Shown in pieces: positions 10,161-35,458 of a stretch of 64,000 bases of DNA (position 1 is the stretch's first letter; every line of letters starts with the position of its first letter). This DNA is from Halobacteriovoraceae bacterium. Its GTDB lineage: Bacteria > Bdellovibrionota > Bacteriovoracia > Bacteriovoracales > Bacteriovoracaceae. The position numbers and the translations under genes are program-made. The stretch is from the NCBI GenBank assembly GCA_002711995.1, contig PASN01000014.1, positions 62,001-126,000 on the forward strand, written 5' to 3'. The notes under the pieces were generated by a model. That model saw only the letters and a program-made list of their open reading frames with translations, did no database searches and was not told the origin of the DNA.

Positions 10161-10253
10161 CCACTATGAAAACGTTGTTCATGGCAAAGAATGCCTTTTC
10201 ACTAATTGAAAACTTTTGAGCTCATGCTGGATATATAAAGGAAACTGAATTGT

Positions 10254-10440
10254 TGTGCTGTAAAAAGCACACATCTTCCGTGACTCCCTCAATGAAGAGG
10301 GAGCCTTTAACATAAGGCTTTTGTTATGGAAGACATGAAAAGGGTCTTGAACTTCATCGTGATAGTCTTGCAACTGGCAATTGCAATTCTTGATCTGATC
10401 AAGTGATAGTTCGGGGAAGGTGTAAAAAGCATCTTCCCAC
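10254..10440 (+). ncRNA. Structured mRNA of small-peptide element, copy 1
   Basis: Ordered elements: hairpin 1 (10254-10271, TGTGCT/AGCACA, loop GTAAAA), linker CTTCCGTGA, hairpin 2 (10284-10303, CTCCCTC/GAGGGAG, loop AATGAA), hairpin 3 (10303-10318, GCCTT/AAGGC), peptide gene (10326-10406) and 3' hairpin (10414-10438, GGGAAGGTG/CATCTTCCC, loop TAAAAAG). The same order occurs at 16189-16373 with different stem sequences that still pair and identical or similar loops, i.e. covariation. TCTTCC in the linker is complementary to GGAAGA at codons 1-4 of the peptide gene. Promoter not clearly seen. Confidence 0.75.
10326..10406 (+). CDS. 26-residue amphipathic peptide, copy 1
   Basis: ATG at 10326, TGA at 10404-10406. 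The product begins MEDMKRVLNFIVIVL and ends LAIAILDLIK: charged ends around a roughly 18-residue hydrophobic or amphipathic helix. AAGG at 10314-10317 is spaced 8 nt from the ATG and lies in the 3' arm of leader hairpin 3. Copy 2 conserves MED, RVL and ILDLIK; many shared residues use different synonymous codons (GTC/GTT, CTT/CTA, GAT/GAC, CTG/TTA, AAG/AAA), which indicates selection on the protein. It resembles type I toxin peptides or phenol-soluble-modulin-like peptides in size and character only; no homology is claimed. Confidence 0.72.
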   Translation: MEDMKRVLNFIVIVLQLAIAILDLIK

Positions 10441-10455
10441 CTTTCATGCAAATTT

Positions 10456-10484
10456 ATAATACCAAACGCCAAGTTCGAGTTCAA
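10456..10484 (-). promoter_or_regulatory. Promoter for putative antisense RNA, copy 1
   Basis: On the minus strand TTGAAC (10479-10484) and TATTAT (10456-10461) are separated by 17 nt. Transcription would start near 10449 and run back through the 3' hairpin and the peptide gene. Copy 2 has a promoter-like sequence at the same place (16392-16420), 18 nt beyond its 3' hairpin as against 17 nt here. Confidence 0.55.
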
Positions 10485-16115: not shown

Positions 16116-16188
16116 CTTAAGCAGTCCCTGGTTTTCAAATATGAAATGCTTCATCCCACGAGTTTGAATACTACTGAACATTGAACTT

Positions 16189-16373
16189 GCGTGCTGTACA
16201 AAGCGTGCAGCTTCCGTAACTCCCCAATGAAGGGGAGCCTTTTAACCAAAGGTGTTTGTTATGGAAGACATAATCAGGGTTTTGACTTTGATTAAACTAG
16301 TTTTGGATATCGCGAATTCAATTCTAGACTTAATCAAACGATGATTTGGGTGGGGTGTAAGCAGCACCCCACC
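16189..16373 (+). ncRNA. Structured mRNA of small-peptide element, copy 2
   Basis: Same order as at 10254-10440: hairpin 1 (16189-16208, GCGTGCT/AGCGTGC with two wobble pairs, loop GTACAA), linker CTTCCGTAA, hairpin 2 (16220-16237, CTCCCC/GGGGAG, loop AATGAA), hairpin 3 (16237-16253, GCCTTT/AAAGGT), peptide gene at 16261-16344 and 3' hairpin (16349-16373, GGTGGGGTG pairing with CACCCCACC, loop TAAGCAG). Stem changes relative to copy 1 are compensatory; loops 2 and 4 are conserved. CTTCC of the linker can pair with GGAAG beside the start codon. Confidence 0.75.
16261..16344 (+). CDS. 27-residue amphipathic peptide, copy 2
   Basis: ATG at 16261, TGA at 16342-16344. The product begins MEDIIRVLTLIKLVLDI and ends NSILDLIKR. 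Hydrophobic residues are spaced every 3-4 positions with Lys and Asp between, so it is more clearly amphipathic than copy 1. AAAGGTG (16248-16254) provides a ribosome site within hairpin 3. The two products share about half their residues while their leader stems have diverged by paired changes, so peptide and RNA fold are both under selection. Function unknown; membrane-active toxin or signal is inference. Confidence 0.72.
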   Translation: MEDIIRVLTLIKLVLDIANSILDLIKR

Positions 16374-16391
16374 ACCTGATCATGTTCTATA

Positions 16392-16420
16392 ATATTAGCA
16401 AATCTAAAAGGCCTCTACAA
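16392..16420 (-). promoter_or_regulatory. Promoter for putative antisense RNA, copy 2
   Basis: On the minus strand TTGTAG (16415-16420) and TAATAT (16392-16397) lie 17 nt apart and point into the peptide gene; a start near 16385 is expected. Position relative to the 3' hairpin matches copy 1. The rest of the gap to 16598 holds no gene that I can support. Confidence 0.5.
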
Positions 16421-25534: not shown

Positions 25535-26302
25535 TTAGCCCCTTCTTCTTCTTCCTGCTGGAATACTTCTTCTAGGAGATCTTCCACCGTTTCCTGGAGG
25601 ATTGTAACGCGGACCTCTAGGAGCTGGTCTAGTGCTTGGTCTTCTCGGTGATGGCGCGGGCCTTGTGCTTGGTCTTCTAGGAGCTGGAGCTGGTCTTGTG
25701 CTCGGTCTTCTAGGAGCTGGAGCTGGCCTATGTCTTGGGTTTCTTGGTGCCGGTCTAGTTCTCGGTGGTCTTGGAACCGGAGCTGGTCTGTGTCTTCTAG
25801 GGTTTCTAGGCGGATCGTATCTTCTATGAGGGTACCTTGGAATTGGCTCATATCTTCTGTGTGGATATCTTGGGATTGGGTCGTAGCTTCTTCTTGGGTA
25901 TCTATCTCTAAGCTGATTCATAGTATAGCTTAAATCGTAATAAGCATTCTCAACTCTTCTCATGTCGTATTCAAGAGAGCCGCTGTAATCATATGAGTTT
26001 CTATAAGCGTTTTGAAGTGCTGTGAATGCTGCAACAATGCTTATGTTGTAGTCGCGGAAGATTTCTGCGCAATTTGATGCATGGCGAACAGTTCTTTCAA
26101 AGCTCTCAGAGTTTCTCCAAAGTCTTTTTGCTGTTTCTTGAACACTGTACTCACCTTGGCGAGATGCATCGTAAGCTAGGTCTGAAGAGCTGTGCTGTAG
26201 ATCATTTACATCGTTAATAACGTCTCTTGTATTCGCGCAGTATGCGAGTACCGAGGTTGAAGTGAATAGGGCCGCGGCTGCGACAAGCAGTTTAACATTC
26301 AT
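25535..26302 (-). CDS. Exported protein with Arg/Pro repeat tail
   Basis: 255 residues from the ATG at 26302 with AAGGAGG upstream; the signal peptide is MNVKLLVAAAALFTSTSVLA. Residues 20-140 are helical with two cysteines (AYCAN, SNCAEI). From about residue 140 the sequence becomes basic and proline-rich: YDPIPRYPHRR-type repeats, then three near-exact copies of RRPSTRPAPAP, ending SIPAGRRRRG. Such tails bind polyanions, cell wall or membranes; function unknown. Repeats at DNA level make copy-number change likely. Confidence 0.82.
   Translation of the reverse strand: MNVKLLVAAAALFTSTSVLAYCANTRDVINDVNDLQHSSSDLAYDASRQGEYSVQETAKRLWRNSESFERTVRHASNCAEIFRDYNISIVAAFTALQNAYRNSYDYSGSLEYDMRRVENAYYDLSYTMNQLRDRYPRRSYDPIPRYPHRRYEPIPRYPHRRYDPPRNPRRHRPAPVPRPPRTRPAPRNPRHRPAPAPRRPSTRPAPAPRRPSTRPAPSPRRPSTRPAPRGPRYNPPGNGGRSPRRSIPAGRRRRG
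25619..25729 (-). repeat. 33-bp tandem repeat within coding sequence
   Basis: About three consecutive 33-bp units encoding RRPSTRPAP[AS]P inside the Arg/Pro-rich gene. The units are nearly identical at DNA level and in frame, so slippage would change the tail length by 11 residues without a frameshift. Confidence 0.85.
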
Positions 26303-34358: not shown

Positions 34359-34465
34359 ACAAACTTCTCCTTCATCTTGGACCTAAACCTAATGGTTCAC
34401 AATCAAAGTTTATTAATCATTTCTTTGTTTTAATGTTTATATTCTATAATGAGTTTGGATGTTCC

Positions 34466-34497
34466 CACACCTTCATTGAAATACATTCATAGGTGTG
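34466..34497. promoter_or_regulatory. Nested palindrome with shared 15-bp sequence
   Basis: CACACCT and AGGTGTG (7-bp arms, 18 nt apart) surround TGAAATACATTCATA, itself a TGAA/TTCA dyad. The 15-bp sequence recurs exactly at 35375-35389. Each copy sits about 120-130 nt upstream of a minus-strand exported-protein gene (34358 and 35245), suggesting a common regulator. Confidence 0.5.
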
Positions 34498-34582
34498 TTT
34501 AAAGTTTCAACAATGGACCCTGGGGCTATCTTAACTATGCATGAGGTGGAAAATGTATTGGGTCAAATTTTAGATAAAACAG

Positions 34583-35245: not shown

Positions 35246-35374
35246 AAAATTCTCCGTATTAATATATTCAGTAAAACAATAGTTCGCGCTTTAAATGATG
35301 CTTGCACAACCATTTAAATGACACTTTAGTGTTTGTTAATTGTCTAATGATTATGAATTTTGGCATAGGTGCAA

Positions 35375-35389
35375 TGAAATACATTCATA
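35375..35389. repeat. Second copy of the 15-bp sequence
   Basis: TGAAATACATTCATA, identical to 34477-34491. With the preceding A it forms ATGAA-ATACA-TTCAT, a perfect 5-bp dyad. It lies 130 nt upstream of the gene starting at 35245. Confidence 0.5.
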
Positions 35390-35458
35390 TGGGTGTATAG
35401 AGTGTTTACAGTTATTTTTGGTGCTCTAGGCGGGCTAAGGTGTGGGAATTGTGAGAGA

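Follow-up and report, generated by a model that had tools for sequence, protein, structure and literature searches.

A family of structured RNA elements encoding short hydrophobic peptides in the Bacteriovoracaceae: a putative new type I toxin-antitoxin family

What is the role of a structured RNA element that encodes a peptide of only 26 or 27 residues and that recurs within the same bacterial genome? The question is raised by a 64,000-nucleotide stretch of DNA from a Halobacteriovoraceae bacterium (GenBank assembly GCA_002711995.1, contig PASN01000014.1, positions 62,001 to 126,000 of the forward strand), referred to here as the window. The original prediction, made from the DNA letters alone, described two such elements in the window and proposed that they represented either a possible new type I toxin-antitoxin family or a regulated membrane-active peptide useful to a predator. 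The former is the best supported reading, given the compensatory stem changes in homologues and the conservation of an antisense promoter, and we infer that the elements quite probably represent a new family within the type I toxin-antitoxin class, each with a predicted toxin and a predicted antisense RNA.

Both copies are indeed present in the window, at 10254-10440 and 16189-16373, with the parts originally described, namely, and in this order, a hairpin at the 5' end, two more hairpins in the leader, a frame of 26 or 27 codons, and a 3' hairpin. The total for this genome is, however, ten rather than two. With copy 1 as the query, eight further strong matches were obtained besides both window copies, and when these ten sequences were used to construct a covariance model (R1), it retrieved the identical ten and none extra. 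The frame is kept in all of them, and they fall into two sequence subgroups, A (MEDMTRVLSLIVIVLQLAVAILDLIK-like, including copy 1) and B (MEDIIRVLTLIKLVLDIINSILDLIKR-like, including copy 2). Model R1 revealed homologues in nine of 59 relatives. A second model (R2), rebuilt from 62 copies, located the element at about 100 places in 35 of 129 sampled Bacteriovoracaceae genomes, representing 12 of 48 genera, with at most ten copies per genome and with tandem clusters being common. A class-level search returned the same positive genomes, and the 26 positives in a phylum-wide sample of 291 genomes all belong to the family of the window; outside of that family the element was not found in either sample. 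A scan of named genomes with a DNA pattern returned Bacteriovoracaceae, Bacteriovorax, Halobacteriovorax, and related assemblies. The element is absent from the phage and plasmid collections searched and from viral contigs. Pattern matches in other phyla, and five in viral contigs, were not matched by the RNA model and are regarded as chance.

The architecture of the message, which is encoded on the forward strand, is defined by a series of hairpins. The 5' hairpin, P0, spans 10251-10273 in copy 1 and 16187-16210 in copy 2, and is supported by folding and by covariation (helices 1-2). A three-way junction follows, at 10274-10333 and 16211-16267, respectively, as judged from folding, from covariation in P1 and P2, and from the scoring of P3-type hairpins. 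P1 covers the start codon and is formed by 10274-10284 paired with 10323-10333 in copy 1 and by 16211-16220 paired with 16258-16267 in copy 2. P2 occupies 10285-10302 and 16221-16236. The third stem, P3, pairs the ribosome-binding AAGG of copy 1 (10303-10318) and covers the ribosome-binding site of copy 2 (16237-16253). Scoring for hairpins of at least four pairs close to the start gave a P3-type hairpin in 61 of 63 copies, although for some of these P2 was taken instead. The stem that hides the start codon, the long-range helix and upstream palindrome described below, and a hairpin within the coding region had all escaped the original prediction.

Over 196 nucleotides, each copy folds far better than its dinucleotide shuffles, with z values of -5.6 and -5.9, and upon addition of 13 more 3' bases these become -5.9 for copy 1 and -6.9 for copy 2. 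Across 62 aligned copies, standard pairs occupy 88.9% of the stem cells, changes on both sides of a pair are found in 612 cells versus 192 in shuffles, and the covariation score is 0.493 as compared to 0.194 for shuffled alignments and no more than 0.106 with slid partners. Because the model was used to fit the alignment, these values somewhat overstate the effect. The homologues with compensatory stem changes that the original prediction called for are thus abundant. Within the stems there are 385 G-U cells and 50 A-C cells, an asymmetry that places the structural constraint on the peptide-coding strand. The translation start is sequestered by mRNA structure, P1 lying on the start codon and P3 on the ribosome-binding site; in the folded full-length RNA these are on average 1% and 15% unpaired, respectively. 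The P2 loop, AATGAA (or ACTGAA/ACTGAT), is kept across genera and is located in the window at 10291-10296 and 16226-16231, whereas the loops of P3 and of the 3' hairpin vary. It may serve as a contact site for RNA or protein. No Rfam family matched the window at the gathering score, and the sub-threshold matches on the element are ascribed to chance.

The peptide genes extend from 10326 to 10406 (26 residues, MEDMKRVLNFIVIVLQLAIAILDLIK, with its own internal hairpin) and from 16261 to 16344 (27 residues, MEDIIRVLTLIKLVLDIANSILDLIKR). Despite wide sequence divergence, an intact frame of 20-32 residues is found in 59 of 63 copies, and the ratio of nonsynonymous to synonymous change (pN/pS) is 0.48 in that frame versus 0.79 and 1.41 in the other two. 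The 50 distinct peptides, 23-30 residues in length and about half as long as Hok, are all hydrophobic, with grand average of hydropathy (GRAVY) values mostly of 1.0-2.0 and a best 15-residue hydrophobicity window of about 2.1-3.5. As candidates for toxin genes, then, the frames have fewer than 60 codons and encode hydrophobic, potentially transmembrane peptides. The N-terminus is charged (MED, MEE, or MDD), there are usually one or two charged residues at the C-terminus, and in the hydrophobic remainder the letters vary while the character is kept. The peptide had originally been called amphipathic, a description that fits subgroup B, including copy 2, for which the helical moment has a z value of about 2.2, but not the family as a whole (mean z of 0.07). 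Among the Pfam, NCBIfam, and PHROGs matches of the family peptides there was no type I toxin family; phrog_5134 (expectation value 0.003) and KdpF (0.06) are weak matches to short hydrophobic models and were not counted as membership. No solved structure was found for a peptide of the family.

In a long-range helix, P4, codons 3-7 pair with the 9-13 nucleotides immediately 3' of the 3' hairpin. It was first suggested by folding of the antisense strand and was then confirmed by tests on the sense strand. In copy 1, residues 10334-10343 (codons 3-6) pair with 10440-10448, directly 3' of the 3' hairpin, and in copy 2, residues 16268-16278 pair with 16375-16385. Averaged over 61 copies, the energy of this duplex is -11.7 kcal/mol, as compared to -7.8 ± 0.34 kcal/mol for partners swapped between copies and -5.7 kcal/mol for shuffled ones, with windows farther downstream giving about -5 kcal/mol. 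Both-side changes number 36 in 36 ungapped sequences versus 10.3 in shuffles, the covariation score is 0.312 versus 0.117, and all four Watson-Crick types occur at one of the pairs. P4 also emerges from free folding of the two window copies and of one copy from another genus. Trimming of the 3' end in silico increases the unpaired fraction of the early codons from 23% to 43%. The 3' strand of P4 lies just outside the stable 3' hairpin, and it would therefore be lost if a 3' exonuclease were to trim the message back to that hairpin.

On the opposite strand, past the 3' hairpin, lies a promoter directed back toward the peptide gene. In copy 1 it reads TTGAAC-17-TATTAT (10456-10484, minus strand) with TG ahead of the -10 element, and in copy 2 TTGTAG-17-TAATAT (16392-16420, minus strand) with an extended -10 element (TGC ahead). 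Taken singly these sites are unremarkable: a plain scan returned two sites in the copy 1 region, where 1.2 ± 0.9 are expected, and missed that of copy 2. Their significance arises from conservation across the family. The conservation was assessed in 48 downstream regions sharing less than 80% identity, with the -10 element anchored independently of the -35. Here TTG occurs 16-19 nucleotides (mode 17) before the antisense -10 element in 30 regions versus 6.1 ± 2.2 in shuffles, and the TG of an extended -10 element in 20 versus 4.2 ± 1.9. The 29 regions that were held out and fetched later gave 16 versus 2.7 ± 1.7 for TTG and 11 versus 2.1 ± 1.3 for TG. The back-facing promoters with 17-nucleotide spacers that the original prediction had put forward, at 10484-10456 and 16420-16392 in the window, are accordingly borne out across the family, held-out copies included. 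The flanking genes differ between the two window copies, and the flanks likewise differ between dispersed copies; because the neighbors are not shared, the promoter, which is conserved in position and sequence, belongs to the element. Its -10 element usually ends 12-13 nucleotides past the modelled end of the element, and thus the antisense start is predicted to fall at the base of this hairpin's stem, near 10449 in copy 1 and near 16385 in copy 2.

The 3' hairpin itself is located at 10414-10438 in copy 1 (covariation helix 9, 96.7% of cells paired) and at 16349-16373 in copy 2, with loops of AAAAA and AAGCA, respectively. This five-nucleotide loop is different in every one of the ten copies of the window genome, and elsewhere it is unlike in nearly all paralogues, including those that share the very same stem around it. 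Fifty pairs of copies from the same genome have coding regions that are at least 80% identical. Across these pairs, which are not independent of one another, the coding region has a mean identity of 92%, its third positions 88%, the 60 nucleotides downstream 79%, and the loop 58%. The last value is near the 51% loop identity observed between genomes. Such diversity is expected from selection against cross-talk between antisense pairs.

On the basis of these results a mechanism can be envisioned. The sense transcript would encode a hydrophobic peptide of 23-30 residues that forms a single helix and acts as a self-poisoning toxin of the inner membrane. In its full-length form the transcript would be locked three ways, by P1 on the start codon, by P3 on the ribosome-binding site, and by P4 on codons 3-7. 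Transcription from the extended -10 promoter on the opposite strand would give an antisense RNA beginning at the base of the 3' hairpin, such that the 5' end of this RNA is the complement of the hairpin and the remainder reads back through the peptide gene. Docking would occur via the loop of the 3' hairpin, the copy-specific sequence of which could match each antidote to its own message, and subsequent spreading of the pairing into a duplex would either block translation or lead to degradation of the duplex. Activation would call for processing that removes the lock, together with loss or dilution of the antisense RNA.

The combination of a hydrophobic peptide, a hidden ribosome-binding site, a 5'-3' lock, and a facing antisense promoter matches the plan of type I systems, the toxins of which are short hydrophobic transmembrane peptides (PMC8309996) and for which a hidden ribosome-binding site is a described feature (PMC4147584). 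The closest parallels can be drawn feature by feature. AapA/IsoA of Helicobacter pylori likewise comprises multi-copy chromosomal loci with a short hydrophobic peptide, a 5'-3' message lock, and loop docking, the last proposed here, and AapA1/IsoA1 employs a long-distance 5'-3' interaction and kissing loops (PMC8167048). In the present family, unlike AapA/IsoA, P4 pairs the early codons and the ribosome-binding site has a hairpin of its own; the phylum is different, and neither a family-library match of the peptides nor an Rfam match was found. In Fst/RNA II (par of pAD1), BsrG/SR4, TxpA/RatA, and YonT/SR6, as here, the antisense gene faces the toxin from the 3' side (PMC8309996, PMC4147584). 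Fst/RNA II makes contact at the terminator loop and has a hidden ribosome-binding site (PMC8309996), comparable to the 3' hairpin contact proposed here and to the placement of the ribosome-binding site in a stem. In contrast to Fst/RNA II and the other three, which are 3'-overlap systems, no shared bidirectional terminator was found near the window copies, and no sequence relation was detected; a further difference is that the antisense start at the hairpin foot means that the predicted antisense RNA should run into the coding region. The hok message is inert until processed and displays long-range 5'-3' pairing (PMC4147584), a feature shared by the elements described here, but the latter lack an overlapping leader frame, carry the antisense gene at the 3' side, and have no Rfam or Pfam match. 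Finally, very short hydrophobic peptides in repeated loci are also characteristic of Ibs/Sib, where IbsC contains 19 residues and the antitoxin SibC finds its target through dedicated recognition domains (PMC8309996); the candidate discriminating site here is instead the 3' hairpin loop, and again no sequence relation was found. Indeed, no match was obtained to the Hok, Ldr/Fst, Ibs, TisB, ShoB, or AapA family models in Pfam, NCBIfam, PHROGs, and Rfam. The family appears not to have been named before and is best considered a putative new family within the type I class.

Several observations weigh against this assignment. In silico, 3' trimming alone leaves the start codon shut (from 1% to 2% unpaired), and deletion of the 5' strand of P1 opens it only partly (36% unpaired). 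Around the window copies, neither strand was found to contain an intrinsic terminator. A sigma-70-like promoter was also sought for the sense strand and not found, TTG being present in one of 57 upstream regions versus 3.4 expected. Conservation of the peptide N-terminus cannot be credited to the peptide alone and may partly reflect selection on the RNA, since those codons reside in P1 and P4. Likewise, the diversity of the loops could in part be due to relaxed constraint, although the loops have diverged more than their flanks, which argues against this.

The strength of the RNA structure, which includes the coding region, also invites a different explanation, whereby the element is a dual-function or purely regulatory small RNA that acts in trans, perhaps with its conserved AATGAA-like P2 loop as a binding site, and the peptide is either incidental or a non-toxic membrane regulator. 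This is unlikely: the frame stays intact and has the lowest pN/pS of the three, hydrophobicity is kept while residues change, the start codon and ribosome-binding site are specifically hidden, and such an RNA would need neither a conserved antisense promoter nor copy-specific loops. More doubtful still is that the element is a short mobile or selfish repeat resembling a miniature inverted-repeat transposable element (MITE) or a repetitive extragenic palindromic (REP) sequence, with the peptide and hairpins serving only its own spread. Its multi-copy, dispersed, and patchy distribution across genera, the abrupt loss of homology at its borders, and a copy 1 site that is empty in a sister species are all in keeping with a repeat of this type. 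Type I loci themselves are often multi-copy, however, so that this state is not exclusive to mobile repeats; selection on the peptide frame and on the sense RNA would not be expected of one, and one copy occupies orthologous positions in two species. There is no transposase, and no target-site duplications or terminal inverted repeats were recognized by eye, a systematic test not having been made.

Given a host lineage that includes predators and a subgroup B with amphipathic peptides, the peptide might alternatively be a regulated effector that is released by the predator or delivered into prey, the second possibility raised in the original prediction. There is nothing to support this idea: no signal or export sequence was recognized by eye, and no secretion gene was recognized beside the window copies. 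The majority of the peptides form simply a hydrophobic helix, and a self-locking message with an antisense promoter is a design for self-protection, all of which makes the idea highly improbable. A short frame accompanied by hairpins is, in addition, reminiscent of a leader peptide or attenuator that controls a downstream gene. The copies have no downstream gene in common, however, the neighbors of copy 1 are on the opposite strand, and no terminator switch was found near the window copies, such that this function can hardly be entertained.

The type I toxin-antitoxin reading has consequences beyond the window. According to a 2025 paper (PMC12390103), type I systems had been described solely in Proteobacteria, Firmicutes, and Tenericutes prior to the cyanobacterial example of that paper, a restriction attributed there to search methods dependent upon similarity to known loci. 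A literature search yielded nothing relevant on antisense toxins in Bdellovibrio or on small RNAs in Bacteriovorax. If correct, the assignment would extend the class to the Bacteriovoracia, subject to how that lineage was classified in the published count. The family was found without similarity to known loci, and it carries covariation, an antisense promoter, and a searchable model. The chances are about even for a more far-reaching proposal, that up to ten type I loci operate in parallel in one genome of a predatory lineage without cross-reacting, each with a five-nucleotide loop barcode under diversifying selection, and that they constitute the first type I family of the phylum, with a triple-locked message. 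Why predators would keep up to ten self-poisons is then a question in its own right, and the paralogue loops would offer a test, already set up by nature, of the number of antisense pairs that a single cell can accommodate without cross-talk.

Upstream of the element is a palindrome, TTTCA-N4-TGAAA, that is present in 37 of 57 distinct upstream regions versus 1.7 ± 1.4 in shuffles and is placed 72-96 nucleotides ahead of the start-codon stem. In the window it is found at 10196-10212 (TTTTCACTAATTGAAAA, copy 1) and 16133-16146 (TTTCAAATATGAAA, copy 2), with no strand assigned. Since letters rather than pairing are conserved, family-wide conservation suggests a candidate operator, that is, a protein site; an RNA stem was set aside on the same grounds, by eye. 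As a genome-wide motif the palindrome defines no clear regulon, with 22 exact sites versus 14 for the reversed control.

Copy 1 is bordered by a hydrolase gene on one side and a redoxin-glutaredoxin gene on the other, both on the opposite strand. A sister species of the genus lacks copy 1 at the corresponding site, where 13 nucleotides separate the matching flanks, while another copy of the window genome (G000 C13) is, by its matching downstream flanks, the positional orthologue of a copy (G001 C116) in that same species. The elements are therefore both gained and lost, a behavior they share with toxin-antitoxin loci. Decayed copies, in which the start codon has become ACG or which contain early stops, frameshifts, or truncations, were observed at loci L040, L049, L098, L106, L158, L164, and L169, as expected if single copies are dispensable. 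In other genera a motif, AAGGTGCCAGGT, is found beside element copies at 22 of 189 loci (L030, L055, L057, L058, L074, L096, L104, L125, and L172-L174 among them), and is possibly a separate dispersed repeat.

Two additional repeats were noted in the window. A different duplicated element of 72 nucleotides occurs at 34441-34512 and 35339-35410, the two copies being 72% identical and having TGAAATACATTCATA in common, which at 34441-34512 is enclosed by an apparent hairpin, CACACCT...AGGTGTG. Five tandem repeats of 33 nucleotides, spaced by 27-33 nucleotides, lie within an open frame at 25620-25778 that probably encodes a repeat protein.
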